Source of the DNA: Pseudomonadota bacterium
GTDB lineage: Bacteria > Pseudomonadota > Gammaproteobacteria > GCA-001735895
Reading direction: 5' to 3'
Length of the DNA stretch: 39,518 nucleotides
NCBI GenBank assembly: GCA_022563685.1
Contig: JADFMY010000015.1
Coordinates: 1-39,518 of the forward strand
This document shows, in pieces, positions 31,307 to 38,242 of the stretch. The position numbers and the translations under genes were made by a program. The notes under the pieces are model-generated. The model saw only the letters and a list, made by a program, of their open reading frames with translations. It was not told the origin of the DNA and searched no databases. Each line of letters starts with the position of its first letter. The first letter of the stretch is position 1.

Positions 31307-31508
31307 CGTAGGTTGGGCTGAGCCTGGGAAGCCCAACATGACTAATCCAAATCAATATGTTGGGGTTCGTCCCTCTCGGCAACTGCTCCTGCGTCGCCTA
31401 AAAGCGCCTACTGTTGGTGCTCTAATAAGTTACATGACCGCCATGGATGGTGGAAATGCAATTGGGTTGTAGGAACAACCCTTGCCCATGTAACGAACCC
31501 CAACCTAC
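31307..31508 (+). repeat. palindromic repeat copy 2, interrupted by another repeat
   Basis: The left part (31307-31375) is close to the element at 26644-26725 read on the other strand, and its right end (ACCCCAACCTAC) resumes at 31497. Between them lie about 121 bases, of which the last 62 are a copy of a second repeat family (see 32937). This can be read as a repeat inserted into a repeat. The remainder of the gap between 31239 and 31519 holds no gene I can support. Confidence 0.75.
31435..31496 (+). repeat. hairpin repeat family 2, copy 1
   Basis: A 62-base element with a first stem CCGCC/GGTGG and a second stem GGGTTGT-AGGA-ACAACCC (31464-31481). It is about 80% identical to the copy at 32939-33001. 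The second stem differs in bases but keeps pairing between copies. Confidence 0.7.
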
Positions 31509-32748: not shown

Positions 32749-32938
32749 GATGATCCTCCTGGCGCCAAAACAGACATAGTCTGAATATGCAAGATTTTTC
32801 CCGAGGTAAAAAAATAACCCCTCTTTCCTGACAAATCCAGATGGAAATGGTTCAATAGATTCCGGATAACCCCTTCGGGCTTTCCGGAATGACGGGATCG
32901 TCATTTAATATATCGTCATTTCGGCCCCCGAGCCGGAA

Positions 32939-33001
32939 TGACCGCCAGGGACGGTGGAAATGCAGTATGGTAGTAGGAACTACCCCTGCCTATTTAACCG
33001 A
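32939..33001 (+). repeat. hairpin repeat family 2, copy 2
   Basis: It carries CCGCC-N6-GGTGG and GGTAGT-AGGA-ACTACC (32969-32984), aligned with the element at 31435-31496. The stem bases changed in pairs while the AGGA loop stayed, which suggests that the fold is selected. Confidence 0.7.
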
Positions 33002-33013
33002 ATATTCCTCAAT

Positions 33014-33042
33014 TTGCAATCAACCAGCCTTTCCCACACAAT
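33014..33042 (+). promoter_or_regulatory. promoter-like module, copy A
   Basis: TTGCAA at 33014-33019, a 17-base spacer and CACAAT at 33037-33042, the spacing of a sigma70 promoter. The module's conserved part runs on to GGAAAAT at 33057, forming a partial dyad with TTTCC. The DUF2157 start lies 36 bases beyond the -10-like hexamer. Copies B and C are at 35040 and 37202. Confidence 0.55.
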
Positions 33043-33077
33043 CGATGTGAGGAAAATAGTAAGTAGCAAGGGCTGGC

Positions 33078-34157
33078 ATGAAAACACCGAGCAAAACTAC
33101 CGCCCAGCAGCGCGCCGACCAGATACATGCTTTCAACCATGAGCTGGCCGAGCTGACGCGCGAGCAGGTGTTAAGCCTCAGCGCCGAACAACAGGCGGCT
33201 ATCGACGATTACCACCAGGGCCTGCTAAATCAATTCCGCAGCGACTTTGACATCGACCACAGCCAGCACGAAAAGCAACTCTCGCTCGGCATGCGCATCG
33301 CCTCGTTTCTCGGTGCGGTGGCACTGGCCGCCAGCGTGTTTTTTCTGTTTTATCAATTCTGGGGCAGGCTCGGCACGGCCAGCCAGGTCACCATCCTCAG
33401 CGGCGCCTCGATAATCAGCTTCCTCGCCACGGTCATAGTCGCCAGTAAGGATGCCTCGGGCTATTTCACCAAGCTCATCGGACTGGTGGCCTTCGCCTGT
33501 TTTGTACTCAACATCGCCATGTTCGGGCTGATATTCAACATCACCCCCACCGACAACGCGCTGCTGGCCTGGGCGGCGCTGGCCCTGTTGCTGGCCTATG
33601 CCTATGACGTCCGCCTGTTACAGGTCGCCGCCTTGCTCTGCATCATCGCCTATGTCTCGGCGCGGGTCGGCGCGTGGAGCGGCATGTACTGGATCCACTT
33701 TGGCGAAAGGCCGGAGAACTTTTTCCCCATTGCCCTACTGCTGTTCTTTATCCCGCAATGGATCAACCATGAGCGCTTCAGCGGCTTTGCCCTGTCTTAT
33801 CGGGTGTTCGGCATCGTCACCCTGTTACTGCCGATGCTGGTGCTCGCCCACTGGGGTTATGGCAGCTACCTGAACATCGACCCCGACCTCATCGAAGGCA
33901 GCTATCAACTGGCCGGGTTTATACTCAGTGGCGTTTTTATCTGGTATGGCATTCGCCGCGGCTGGGGCCATGTCGTCAATAGTGGCGTGACCTTCTTCGT
34001 TATCTTCATCTACACCAAATTCTTCGACTGGTGGTGGGAGGTGATGCCCAGGTACCTGTTCTTCCTGGTGCTCGGCCTGGTGGCGATACTCTGCCTGGTC
34101 ATACTCAAGCGCCTGCGCAAGGCAGAGCAACCGCTAGCGGAGGGAGCGCAGCCATGA
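33078..34157 (+). CDS. DUF2157-family multi-pass membrane protein
   Basis: A 359-residue protein. The first about 70 residues are soluble and helical, then ten or so membrane helices follow, such as IASFLGAVALAASVFFLFYQFW and YLFFLVLGLVAILCLVILKR. The N-terminal coiled part followed by many helices is the DUF2157 plan. Function is unknown. The ATG at 33078 lies downstream of the promoter-like module, and the stop overlaps the next start as ATGA, so the two are translationally coupled. Confidence 0.82.
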   Translation: MKTPSKTTAQQRADQIHAFNHELAELTREQVLSLSAEQQAAIDDYHQGLLNQFRSDFDIDHSQHEKQLSLGMRIASFLGAVALAASVFFLFYQFWGRLGTASQVTILSGASIISFLATVIVASKDASGYFTKLIGLVAFACFVLNIAMFGLIFNITPTDNALLAWAALALLLAYAYDVRLLQVAALLCIIAYVSARVGAWSGMYWIHFGERPENFFPIALLLFFIPQWINHERFSGFALSYRVFGIVTLLLPMLVLAHWGYGSYLNIDPDLIEGSYQLAGFILSGVFIWYGIRRGWGHVVNSGVTFFVIFIYTKFFDWWWEVMPRYLFFLVLGLVAILCLVILKRLRKAEQPLAEGAQP

Positions 34158-35020
34158 AGCTCGACTACAAAATATTCAAAGGCAAGATATTCATCGCCGG
34201 GCTCGCCATCATCATCGTCACCAACATCGTTGCGCTCGCCGGCGTGGCCTACAACCGCTCTGGCGAACCCGATGCCGTGGTCGAACTCACCGAACGCGAA
34301 CTGGGCTTGCCCTACCGCTATGGCATGAACAAGGAAAACACTGGCCTGGGCCTGCGAATCAACTGCCGCATAGAAGATGCGCAACGCTATTTCTACGGCA
34401 ACACCAACTGCTGGAGTAACCCGAGTTGGCTCAATAAAGAAAAACTGATCGAACTCGGCTTTCAACTCCAGCTCCAGGGAGATAAAACAGCAGGCCGCCT
34501 GGCCTTTGAAAAAGAATTGCCGCGCGAGGTCTTCCTCGTGCTGCAATACGACGGCGCCGCGCACCAGAGGGTAGTGAGCAGTGCAGAAGAAGAACTGGGC
34601 GAACAACAGGCACTGCTGGCCAACAACCCGGGGCAGGAAGAATTCGAAAAACGCGTAGAAGATGCAGCGAAGAAACTGAACAACGAACAACACCACAACA
34701 GCCGCCTGTTCGCGATAGATGCCGGACTGGACAGGGCCCGATTAAGAAACACCTATCCAGACACCAGCCAATACATCCTCATGCAGGCCCTGATCAGACC
34801 GACCTGGAGCCGCGATGAAAATGAAGAAGAATGGAAAGGCACAATCACCGGCCTGCTGATCGGCACCATCAACATCCCGCTCGAACACCGCGCACTATTC
34901 GAGCCACTGGAAGCAGCACAGCTACGCCGCAATCAAAACAGGCAAACACCGCGCTACACAGTGCGAGTCGCCTTCGGCAAGCGGGCTGAGCCGTGGGTGA
35001 TTACGGTGGGGAAGCTGTAG
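34154..35020 (+). CDS. DUF4824-like/GDYXXLXY-type membrane-anchored protein
   Basis: A 288-residue protein with one N-terminal membrane helix (GLAIIIVTNIVALAGVA) and a large extracytoplasmic part. The segment AVVELTERELGLPYRYGMNKENTGL is typical of DUF4824, a family often next to DUF2157 genes. A helical stretch with many Glu and Lys sits in the middle. It overlaps the DUF2157 stop by four bases; together they may form an unknown envelope complex. Part of its middle (34684-34717) has a decayed copy at 35827-35859. Confidence 0.75.
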   Translation: MKLDYKIFKGKIFIAGLAIIIVTNIVALAGVAYNRSGEPDAVVELTERELGLPYRYGMNKENTGLGLRINCRIEDAQRYFYGNTNCWSNPSWLNKEKLIELGFQLQLQGDKTAGRLAFEKELPREVFLVLQYDGAAHQRVVSSAEEELGEQQALLANNPGQEEFEKRVEDAAKKLNNEQHHNSRLFAIDAGLDRARLRNTYPDTSQYILMQALIRPTWSRDENEEEWKGTITGLLIGTINIPLEHRALFEPLEAAQLRRNQNRQTPRYTVRVAFGKRAEPWVITVGKL

Positions 35021-35039
35021 AATCCCGTCGTCAACTCAT

Positions 35040-35068
35040 TTGCAATCACCCAATGTTTCGCACACAAT
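35040..35068 (+). promoter_or_regulatory. promoter-like module, copy B
   Basis: TTGCAA at 35040-35045, 17 bases, then CACAAT at 35063-35068. It sits just after the DUF4824-like gene and 121 bases ahead of the MntA start. The dyad that follows in copies A and C is weaker here. Confidence 0.55.
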
Positions 35069-35189
35069 CAACGAGGAGCATAAATCCGTGCCGCCGTAAT
35101 CTCGGAAAAATCAATTATATAGAGGGCTCTGTATGCTCTCACGTAAGAGGATATTCGATATCACACGATTGATTAATAAGGAGGCGATA

Positions 35190-35480
35190 ATGAATCGCTC
35201 GGAAGTTGTTGAATTGCTGACTCGAAGCAAACCGGCGCTGGTCGCCCGTTATGGGGTGACGCGCCTGGCCCTGTTTGGCTCCACCGCGCGTGACGCTGCG
35301 CATAGCGACAGCGATATCGACATCCTGGTTGCCTTCGATGGGCCAGCCACATCGGAACGGTACTTCGGCGTCCAATTCTACCTTGAAGACCAGCTAGGCC
35401 GACCCGTTGATCTGGTGACTGACAAGGCCCTGCGTCCGGAACTACGTCCATATATAGAAAAGGAGGCGGTGCATGTCTGA
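35190..35480 (+). CDS. mntA: MntA-type nucleotidyltransferase antitoxin
   Basis: A 96-residue minimal nucleotidyltransferase. The GSTARD motif with GS at residues 30-31 and the DxD pair at 42 and 44 (SDSDIDILV) are those of MntA, which adds AMP units to HepT. The start at 35190 follows an AAGGAGG site; the longer open frame is not needed. Its stop overlaps the HepT start by eight bases, the usual arrangement of this toxin-antitoxin pair. Confidence 0.92.
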   Translation: MNRSEVVELLTRSKPALVARYGVTRLALFGSTARDAAHSDSDIDILVAFDGPATSERYFGVQFYLEDQLGRPVDLVTDKALRPELRPYIEKEAVHV

Positions 35481-35817
35481 TGCGATACAGCGCGAATGGC
35501 GATTTTATCTCGACGATATGGTCAGCTTTGCAGAGAAAGTTATCGCCTACACCCAAGCTCTGGATCAAGACGGTTTTATTAGCAGCGGTTTGAACTACGA
35601 CGCAACCCTGCGTAATCTGGAGCTGATTGGTGAAGCTGCTACCCATATTCCAAAAGATGTTCGTGAGGATAATCCACAAATACCCTGGCGACTCGTCATC
35701 GCCACCCGAAACCGACTGATCCATGGGTATTTAGGTATGGACAACGACACCCTGTGGAGCATTATTCGTGGCGATATACCCAGCCTGCTCTCGAATCTGC
35801 TAGCCATAAGAGAATAA
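35473..35817 (+). CDS. hepT: HepT-type RNase toxin
   Basis: A 114-residue HEPN-domain protein. The catalytic motif RX4HXY is present as R79-NRLI-H84-G-Y86. Upstream helices carry the LRNLELIGEAATHIP stretch typical of the family. HepT cuts RNA until MntA modifies the tyrosine of this motif. All key residues are intact in both partners, so the system should be functional. It may defend against phage or stabilise the accessory region. Confidence 0.92.
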   Translation: MSDAIQREWRFYLDDMVSFAEKVIAYTQALDQDGFISSGLNYDATLRNLELIGEAATHIPKDVREDNPQIPWRLVIATRNRLIHGYLGMDNDTLWSIIRGDIPSLLSNLLAIRE

Positions 35818-35826
35818 TTTTATGAC

Positions 35827-35859
35827 CGAACCCAACACAATAGCCGCCTGTTCGCGATA
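35827..35859 (+). pseudogene. short decayed fragment of the DUF4824-like gene
   Basis: About 33 bases, including an 18-base identical run (AGCCGCCTGTTCGCGATA), match 34684-34717 inside the DUF4824-like gene. The matching frame reads NSRLFAI followed by a stop and is shifted upstream. This looks like the edge of an old duplication. Confidence 0.55.
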
Positions 35860-36019
35860 TAAAAAGTGCGTGTTGCCTTACCAACAAGCTAACCATCGGT
35901 ATCGCATAGTCGAATCCTGAGCCGTCCCAACCATCACAATGTTATAATTGAAACGGATATAATATTTATCCCTGGCACAGATATAGGGAACCAAGCTTAA
36001 GTTAACCTTTCCAAATAGT

Positions 36020-36580
36020 ATGTTTTTTATTAACACCACAACCCGTTCAGGCTGGCTAATTTTAATGATGCTGATGACGGCCTGTAGCTCGTCCATCCCA
36101 GTTGAAATTCGGCAGACAGTGAATAATGCGCCCGGTGTGGCGCAGCTGCGTGACCAACCCGACAGCTATATTTCACAACCCATTCGTTGGGGCGGCATGA
36201 TCCTGGAAACAGAAAACAAACAAGATACAAGCTGGTTGACGATTATCGCCTTTCCACTGTCGGATAATGGCGAACCGCAGACTTCCGCACGCAGTCCAGG
36301 GCGATTTATAGCCCTGGTCAATGAATTTCTGGAACCTTTGGTATACAGTCGCGATCGCTTAATCACGGTAAAGGGTAGCTTCTTCAAAACTGAAACTCTA
36401 AAGATAGGGGAGTATCCGTATGTGTATCCTGTTATCGAGGTAGATCATTATTATTTATGGCCCAAAAAGCAGGCGCCGAGCTACGTCGACTATCCACCTT
36501 ATTGGGGATATGACCCCTGGTTTTATCCGGGCTATCCCTGGCCTCACCCGCACAGACACCTGTTCCCTGGACACCACTGA
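36020..36580 (+). CDS. Slp-family outer-membrane lipoprotein
   Basis: A 186-residue lipoprotein with the signal ending MLMTAC (lipidated Cys at residue 22) and the Slp family motif QPIRWGGMILETEN, followed by PGRFIALVNEFLEPLVYSRDRLITVKGSF and YPVIEVDHYYLW. The tail is rich in Pro, Tyr and Trp and may be extended. Slp is a stress- and starvation-induced lipoprotein in enteric bacteria; the job here is unknown. A second Slp gene follows after 12 bases. Confidence 0.88.
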   Translation: MFFINTTTRSGWLILMMLMTACSSSIPVEIRQTVNNAPGVAQLRDQPDSYISQPIRWGGMILETENKQDTSWLTIIAFPLSDNGEPQTSARSPGRFIALVNEFLEPLVYSRDRLITVKGSFFKTETLKIGEYPYVYPVIEVDHYYLWPKKQAPSYVDYPPYWGYDPWFYPGYPWPHPHRHLFPGHH

Positions 36581-36592
36581 TGTGAAAAACTG

Positions 36593-37078
36593 ATGTATAG
36601 GAAAATACTGTCCTTACTGTTCTTAATCAGCCTGTTGATGGGCTGTGCCAGCACCCCTGTTTTTGATACTACAGCAGTGGTGAAATCGTTGACGCCGCAG
36701 AGTGTCATTGCGGAGCCAGCAGACAGTCGAGGCAAAACCGCGCTATGGGGTGGAACCATACTGGATACTCGCAACCTGAAAGATTCAACTCGAATAGAAG
36801 TCCTGGCTTACCCGCTCGACTCGTCACAGAGACCGATACTGAGCAGTAAACCGTTGGGACGATTTATCATCCATCGGCAGGGCTACCTTGAACCTGCTAC
36901 TTACAGCGAGGGACGCCTGGTCAGCGTCATGGGCAGTGTCAGCGAAAGTCAGAGCGGTAAAGTCGGTGAGAGCGCCTATATCTACCCGGTTATCAATGCG
37001 CAGCAGTTACAATTATGGTCACCCGAAACCAGTCGAAGCAGAATCGGTTTTAGTTTCGGCCTGGGTATCAGATTGTAG
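36593..37078 (+). CDS. Slp-family outer-membrane lipoprotein, second copy
   Basis: A 161-residue lipoprotein with signal ending LLMGC (Cys at residue 18). Its body repeats the Slp plan: ALWGGTILDTRN, LGRFIIHRQGYLEPATYSEGRLVSVMGSV and YIYPVINAQQLQLW, parallel to the first copy. The pair looks like an old tandem duplication with divergent tails. Both probably sit on the inner face of the outer membrane. It ends with the short beta-like stretch FGLGIRL. Confidence 0.88.
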   Translation: MYRKILSLLFLISLLMGCASTPVFDTTAVVKSLTPQSVIAEPADSRGKTALWGGTILDTRNLKDSTRIEVLAYPLDSSQRPILSSKPLGRFIIHRQGYLEPATYSEGRLVSVMGSVSESQSGKVGESAYIYPVINAQQLQLWSPETSRSRIGFSFGLGIRL

Positions 37079-37474
37079 CTGTTTGTAAAATGCCCCGATG
37101 ACCCCCATCGTCGTTCCGGGCATAGCGAAGCGACGACCCGGAATCTATTAAAAACCTGGTACGGCCATAAACAGTAACCCCGATAAACCACGCCACCTCG
37201 TTTGCAATCACTCAATTTTTCCCACACAATCGAAGCGGGAAAATAAAAAACCAAAAAGGGCTGGTCATTGATTGATCAAACGCTACTAGAATCGGATACT
37301 CGAAAGGAAACCGAACAGAAGTTCACTATCTCTAGTTGGGGTACCCAGAGAAAAACTCATCAGATAATGGTTGAAAAAGTCTTAGGCAGACATATAATCG
37401 TTATTAACAACACCTCCCACGCCTCTCTACGATGCGCACCATGGGGGGTTATTTTTTTCTGGGGTAAGTGAAAA
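37079..37474. other. spacer of 396 bases with repeats
   Basis: Contains a dyad of the CCGGAAT family (37110-37145, with TCGTCG and CGACGA arms) and promoter-like module copy C at 37202. A 67-codon open frame from a TTG at 37268 has no recognisable content. No other gene is visible. Confidence 0.65.
37202..37230 (+). promoter_or_regulatory. promoter-like module, copy C
   Basis: TTGCAA at 37202-37207, 17 bases, then CACAAT at 37225-37230. It continues as a dyad TTTTCCC ... GGGAAAA around the -10-like hexamer. A GGGCTGG follows, as in copy A. Confidence 0.55.
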
Positions 37475-38242
37475 TTGAAATTTTCCCGATACATCGGAAT
37501 AGACTACTCGGGCGCACAAACGGCTGAGAGCAGACTAAGAGCGCTGCAGCTCTTTGCGGCCGACGCCATAGACACACCAGTGAAGATCAGTACCAGGGTA
37601 ACTGGGGCGAAGAACTGGACTCGTCAGGAAATAGCGCAATATTGCCGTGCTGCGATCGACTCGCGAAATCCAGTGATCATCGGGATTGACCATGGTTTTT
37701 CGTTTCCGCTGAGTTACATGAAACGCTATGGCATCACGTCGTGGGACAAATTTCTCGATGACTTCATGCGTCATTGGCCGACCGCCGATCCGCACACCTA
37801 TGTCGATTTCCTACGCGACGGCAATCCCAGAACTGGCACGCCAACTGAACTGCGCCTGTGCGAACAATGGACGTCAGGCGCCAAGAGCGTATTCCAATTT
37901 GACGTGCAGGGGCAGGTCGCGAAGTCCACTCACGCGGGTCTGCCGTGGTTGCTTTGGCTGCGAACGATGCCGGACGCTCGATCTCTGGTTCATTTTTGGC
38001 CGTTCGATGGTTTCGAAGTGCCGGAAGGCAAATCTGTCATCGCAGAGGTCTACCCATCTCTATTCCGCCGTCGATATCCCAAGGGTGGTCGCATTGCTGA
38101 CGAACACGATGCCTTTTCTGTTGCGGCCTGGATCCAGGAGATGGATCGTCGTGGAGCGCTGGAATCATACTTTTCACCGCCGCTCAGTATCCCGGAGCGA
38201 CAGACAGTGATGCTCGAGGGGTGGATTCTAGGTGTGTGGTAA
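37475..38242 (+). CDS. DUF429-like predicted RNase H-fold nuclease
   Basis: A 255-residue protein. The N-terminal strand RYIGIDYSGAQT carries the first acidic residue, IIGIDHGFSFP the second, and IAEVYPSLFRRRYP with the later DEHDAFSVAAW the remaining acidic cluster, as in DUF429/COG2410 predicted nucleases. The start is TTG at 37475, which matches the start of the fold. It may be driven from module copy C. Adjacent downstream is a decayed second nuclease gene, so this may be a remnant of a defence or DNA-processing locus. Confidence 0.75.
   Translation: MKFSRYIGIDYSGAQTAESRLRALQLFAADAIDTPVKISTRVTGAKNWTRQEIAQYCRAAIDSRNPVIIGIDHGFSFPLSYMKRYGITSWDKFLDDFMRHWPTADPHTYVDFLRDGNPRTGTPTELRLCEQWTSGAKSVFQFDVQGQVAKSTHAGLPWLLWLRTMPDARSLVHFWPFDGFEVPEGKSVIAEVYPSLFRRRYPKGGRIADEHDAFSVAAWIQEMDRRGALESYFSPPLSIPERQTVMLEGWILGVW

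Follow-up and report, generated by a model that had tools for sequence, protein, structure and literature searches.

How did one short, promoter-like block come to stand ahead of three unrelated groups of genes? The question is raised by a window of 39,518 nt, the whole of the DNA stretch analysed here (positions 1–39,518, forward strand, of contig JADFMY010000015.1; GenBank assembly GCA_022563685.1, an uncultured gammaproteobacterium). In this window the sequence TTGCAA-N17-CACAAT is found as an exact match at 33014, 35040 and 37202, the same three positions at which a preliminary description had reported it. We refer to these as copies A, B and C: copy A precedes an operon encoding a DUF2157 membrane protein and a DUF4824 protein, copy B a putative MntA-HepT toxin-antitoxin pair, and copy C an abiF RNA followed by a DUF429-like gene. 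As the best explanation we lean, with guarded confidence, towards local multiplication of the control region of the DUF2157-DUF4824 operon, that is, promoter capture by duplication.

Three copies of a 32-nt block

The cores of the three copies are as follows.

33013..33044, plus strand: core of copy A (TTGCAA-N17-CACAAT), beginning 65 nt ahead of the DUF2157 start codon
35039..35070, plus strand: core of copy B, 18 nt past the DUF4824 stop codon and beginning 151 nt ahead of the likely MntA start (35190)
37201..37232, plus strand: core of copy C, with likeness to copy A extending to about 37268

The triple occurrence of TTGCAA-N17-CACAAT is above chance. With up to one mismatch allowed, the window yields three matches, all of them exact; 100 dinucleotide shuffles yield 0.24 on average, and none of the 100 reaches three. 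The shared core spans 32 nt and is thus larger than the two hexamers: 25/32 positions are invariant, including 11/17 in the spacer, and the pairwise identities are 26/32 (A-B), 27/32 (A-C) and 28/32 (B-C). Ungapped flanks of 30 nt are near random, both upstream (A-B 7/30, A-C 6/30, B-C 10/30) and downstream (A-B 9/30, A-C 18/30, B-C 9/30). The likeness of A and C past the core, also reported previously, extends via GGAAAAT to GGGCTGG, which lies at the DUF2157 start codon. Longer alignments give 81% identity over 48 nt for B and C, and 64 nt in common, leader included, for A and C. Furthermore, a CAATC repeat, 22 bp apart, is found with the same spacing in each copy. All copies lie on one strand and inside 4.2 kb, A and B being 2026 nt apart and B and C 2162 nt.

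Copy A and the DUF2157-DUF4824 operon

Copy A is best read as the native control region belonging to the operon behind it.

33078..34157, plus strand: DUF2157 membrane protein (PF09925, 50.5 bits; 82% identity to the ortholog in genome G011)
34154..35020, plus strand: DUF4824 protein (PF16106, E 3.8e-68)

Genome G011, of the same genus, has the orthologous operon, and the sequence TTGCAT-N17-CAGAAT sits ~40 nt ahead of its start. With a matrix built from copies A, B and C only, this site scores 16.2 bits, a value reached at one of 1,680,920 positions in 79 other loci; over the 32 positions it is identical to A at 18, to B at 21 and to C at 22. It is suggestive, from these sequences, that the G011 site is a weaker, same-spaced counterpart of copy A at the orthologous position. 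The comparison is thin because DUF4824 is present in only 3/57 genomes, that of the window included.

We also considered, and rejected, two wider readings of the block. As a promoter conserved among DUF2157 genes it fails in the 79 other loci: the best site in the 300 nt upstream reaches a score of 4.2 there, whereas the G011 site, itself part of that matrix, reaches 37.2. As an RNA element it fails because the hairpin of A is missing from B and from the G011 site. Fold z-scores for A, B and C are −1.97, +0.47 and −0.45 on the plus strand and −2.41, +2.22 and −1.51 on the minus strand; by these scores, the hairpin of A and C is not found in B.

The preliminary description had proposed a promoter that might be mobile. 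A promoter-like control region is plausible, given the 17-nt spacing, the position ahead of an operon and the weaker, same-spaced version in G011; mobility is unsupported (see below). The spacer is 17 nt in A, B, C and the G011 site, the optimum of sigma-70 spacing (16–18 nt). Position and spacing make promoter activity likely at copy A and, for the block in general, plausible. The hexamers are not exotic, since an E. coli RpoD promoter list includes both TTGCAA-17-AATAAT and, as the −10 of another promoter with a spacer of 15 nt, CACAAT (PMC3946193). The conservation of the spacer beyond what a promoter needs, together with the CAATC pair, may be compatible with the binding site of a regulator.

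Copy B, MntA-HepT and a remnant of DUF4824

Copy B is followed by three features.

35190..35480, plus strand: MntA-like antitoxin with a GSX10DXD motif (PF01909; NF047752 46.9 bits, below the cut-off of 60)
35473..35817, plus strand: HepT-like toxin with an RX4HXY motif (PF01934, 85.2 bits; NF047751 29.5 bits, below the cut-off of 60)
35827..35889, plus strand: DUF4824 remnant, in which 35827–35859 copies 34684–34717 and 35860–35889 weakly copies 34955–34982, the 237 nt between being missing

The presence of the DUF4824 remnant behind MntA-HepT indicates a local duplication. The remnant, of the 3' part of the gene, begins 9 nt past the HepT stop codon. Its first stretch matches the intact gene in 30/34 columns, with a score of 49; 300 shuffles score 24.1 on average and 41 at most, none being as high. 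Against the DUF4824 gene of G011 the same stretch scores 34. The second stretch is weaker and colinear with the first (6/1000 shuffles, or 16/1000 when the search space is lengthened). The gap of 237 nt is divisible by three, and stop codons are found in the remnant. MntA-HepT is hence flanked in operon order, by copy B in front and by the DUF4824 remnant behind, and the A-B spacing of 2026 nt is about that of one operon plus leader. The simplest account is that MntA-HepT sits in the shell of a duplicated operon, the body of which would have been replaced.

The GSX10DXD motif of MntA and the RX4HXY motif of HepT are those described for the type VII toxin-antitoxin system MntA-HepT (PMC7641770), and the payload of copy B has both, in adjacent genes. 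In contrast to that system, the pair in the window does not reach the NCBIfam equivalog cut-offs given above, and its toxin-antitoxin function is putative.

Copy C and its surroundings

Copy C is a further copy of the block, and the least explained of the three. The following features lie between the payload of copy B and the end of that of copy C.

36020..36580, plus strand: Slp-family outer membrane lipoprotein 1 (PF03843), between the payload of B and copy C
36593..37078, plus strand: Slp-family outer membrane lipoprotein 2 (PF03843), likewise between the payload of B and copy C
37371..37398, plus strand: sigma-70-like match TTGAAA-16-TATAAT (11/12, a consensus match only), preceding the abiF RNA
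37413..37449, plus strand: abiF RNA (RF03085; 45.9 bits, gathering score 37)
37475..38242, plus strand: DUF429-like protein (named so in the preliminary description and by eye; NF011066 26.8 bits, far under the cut-off), with no match to a Pfam family

The payloads were correctly identified at the outset as DUF2157/DUF4824, MntA-HepT and a DUF429-like gene; that description was incomplete in omitting the two slp genes, the abiF RNA and the sigma-70-like match. The core of copy C is separated from the DUF429-like open reading frame (ORF) by 242 nt, which contain the abiF RNA and, separately, the sigma-70-like match.

An origin of the block as an ancestral slp promoter was rejected: among the slp loci of relatives that were compared (29 of 30, the window's own left out), no site scores above 8.9 bits, and for three slp pairs the upstream regions align no better than shuffles. 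A module-like trace seen by eye ahead of slp (35900–35960) was dropped as well, its best alignment having fallen on the DUF4824 tail.

The abiF RNA lies 25 nt upstream of the DUF429-like gene. As in the AbiF system (RF03085; PMC12373285), the RNA motif is directly upstream of a gene; here, that gene is DUF429-like rather than abiF. The window has one motif at gathering score, compared with two in the C. difficile RNA covered by the same source. In 369 genomes of the class, 16 abiF RNA matches exceed the cut-off, and 13 of these have a locus with ORFs listed. By eye, the adjacent ORF is AbiF-like in seven and there is no clear ORF in two; the others are, one each, a helix-turn-helix (HTH) antitoxin/type I restriction-like pair, a type I restriction-like gene, a Fic-like gene and the window's DUF429-like ORF.

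Proposed origin of the three copies

Under local multiplication, the block would control the DUF2157-DUF4824 operon in cis, most likely as a regulated but weak promoter of the sigma-70 type with extra conserved contacts, the CAATC repeat included. We infer the following order of events. Copy A would be the original, from which the others arose locally. Copy B would head a tandem second copy of the operon, in which MntA-HepT took the place of the body and a piece of the second DUF4824 persisted directly behind HepT. Copy C would be one more duplicate, comprising control region and leader, that today precedes the abiF RNA and the DUF429-like gene. In this way, other genes, probably acquired ones, would have come to lie behind a resident control region.

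Promoter capture by spontaneous tandem duplication has been described for transferred genes (Li and Bock 2019, via PMC11111574). Common to that case and the proposed one is a native promoter copied locally and thereafter standing ahead of an acquired gene. Theirs was observed in laboratory evolution, whereas the duplication in the window is most likely old and degraded, and is read from fragments. If our explanation is right, the locus documents in nature, though partly decayed, the copying of a resident control region to a place ahead of other genes, and a piece of the operon still marks the duplication event. It would be a modest case of a known route, and not a new class of element.

Several observations weigh against local multiplication of an operon promoter. 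(i) The −35 and −10 hexamers each match the consensus (TTGACA/TATAAT) at 4/6 positions only, and A, B and C are all absent from the six sites listed by a sigma-70 scan (threshold 9/12 hexamer matches; shuffle mean 5.3). (ii) The best local alignment between the upstream regions of the window and of G011 is a different, gapped one, equalled by 2/1000 shuffles, and scores of 18–25 with the same A-B-C matrix arise elsewhere in loci taken from whole genomes; the G011 case rests on position because of these two results. In addition, the putative −10 in G011 leaves a leader of just a few nt. (iii) In the 79 DUF2157 relatives other than G011 (which is the 80th locus, L077), the 300 nt upstream do not show the element. 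(iv) No trace of DUF2157 was found between copy B and the DUF4824 tail remnant. (v) Behind copy C there is no trace of the operon (101/300 shuffles are equally good), and the payload of C has a better promoter-like match of its own, TTGAAA-16-TATAAT. (vi) A relaxed pattern (16 bases, up to two mismatches), run on 31 genomes of the genus, hits 30 of them at a total of 82 sites, against four for a reversed control, although several of the sites are one stretch recurring across several genomes and the control is not matched in word content. Seven of the 82 are in the genome of the window, A, B and C among them. This excess may leave room for less similar versions of the motif elsewhere among these genomes.

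Alternative explanations

Firstly, the block could be a shared operator, the binding site of one regulator (the CAATC pair) governing a local envelope and defence regulon. Its similarity would then be held by selection, rather than being a residue of copying. This fits a core that is kept while most flanks are near random, the 11/17 invariant spacer positions, which exceed what sigma-70 requires, the equal spacing of the CAATC pair, and the relaxed-pattern excess, with the qualifications given above. Selection is not required, however, because the stop-containing DUF4824 fragment (30/34) is as conserved as the core (26–28/32). The genome has no other site at up to three mismatches or at a model E of 1 or less, and no regulator was identified. 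We consider a shared operator unlikely; it also overlaps with local multiplication, and does not exclude it. The two may be combined: a control region with a dedicated regulator would join the envelope operon, the toxin-antitoxin pair and the abiF RNA/DUF429 pair as a local stress-and-defence regulon, built by control-region duplication and gene swaps into the shells. This is a speculative extension to which we give a low probability.

Secondly, the copies could stem from independent events of short templated copying (illegitimate recombination) that scattered patches of the operon, a whole second operon never having been present. The surviving patches are indeed short (32–64 nt), and the operon has left no trace behind copy C. 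Around MntA-HepT, by contrast, copy B and the DUF4824 piece are in operon order about one payload, for which a single duplication is simpler, and we hold independent copying to be quite unlikely.

Thirdly, the block could be mobile, as a promoter or miniature element inserting itself in front of different genes. In work by Matus-Garcia (2012, 'Promoter propagation in prokaryotes'), putative mobile promoters are reportedly found as dispersed copies ahead of non-homologous genes; the window resembles this in that one promoter-like sequence fronts unrelated payloads, and the upstream edges are sharp. It differs in that all copies found are within 4.2 kb and in one orientation. The preliminary description had held that absence of the module elsewhere would speak against mobility, and as far as our searches reached, it is absent. 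The draft genome totals 2.99 Mb over 201 contigs, with 92% completeness and 6% contamination. An extended pattern with up to three mismatches finds no further copy in it and none in 56 relatives. The exact pattern is missing from two public collections, genome_contigs and viral_contigs, from which records very close to this genome may have been excluded. A sequence model that includes the G011 site, run at E of 1 or less with part of the candidates scored, matches 19 of 57 genomes. The window's genome yields only A, B and C; outside it and G011 the matches are weak, the best being at E 0.037 in genome G013, ahead of a methyltransferase-like gene (named by eye). With the A-B-C matrix, sites upstream of a prfC-like gene (also named by eye) in G146 and G262 score 12.5–14.8 bits. 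In our judgement, the G013 and G146/G262 sites are within chance expectation for that much sequence. Moreover, terminal inverted repeats with arms of at least 14 nt were not found, since none of the 15 inverted pairs of that arm length closely brackets a single module, and an inserting promoter would not be expected to leave a DUF4824 piece behind HepT. A mobile promoter is, on this evidence, very unlikely.

Lastly, the block could be the recombination site at which cassettes meet in an integron-like or other site-specific array. This would account for the module-gene-module-gene-module order and the similar spacings, but is highly improbable: the best integron integrase match (TIGR02249) in this 92% complete genome has 108 bits against a curated cut-off of 265, weak integrase matches occur likewise in 14/14 control genomes, the GTTRRRY/RYYYAAC core (for which no search was run) is not seen in the module by inspection, and copy B has no hairpin. 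The undescribed accessory island proposed earlier is thereby not borne out.

Searches of plasmids and phages return four and one records, respectively, with partial matches, to a nucleotidyltransferase gene and to a DUF2157 homologue. In the Pseudomonas phage record (L219, OQ658363.1), the DUF2157 homologue has 70.8% DNA identity over 917 nt and adjoins an annotated attR.

Neighbouring repeats

Other repeats lie close to the block. An intergenic repeat of 61 nt is present at 31434–31494 and 32938–32998 (84% identity), and its second copy ends 14 nt ahead of the core of copy A. There are also two members of a dispersed palindrome family.

32858..32889, plus strand: GATTCCGG palindrome, upstream of copy A
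37114..37145, minus strand: member of the GATTCCGG palindrome family, upstream of copy C and in opposite orientation

Genome-wide, the family numbers 11 sites when up to two mismatches are allowed (control, 0), and the two palindromes listed bracket copies A and B.

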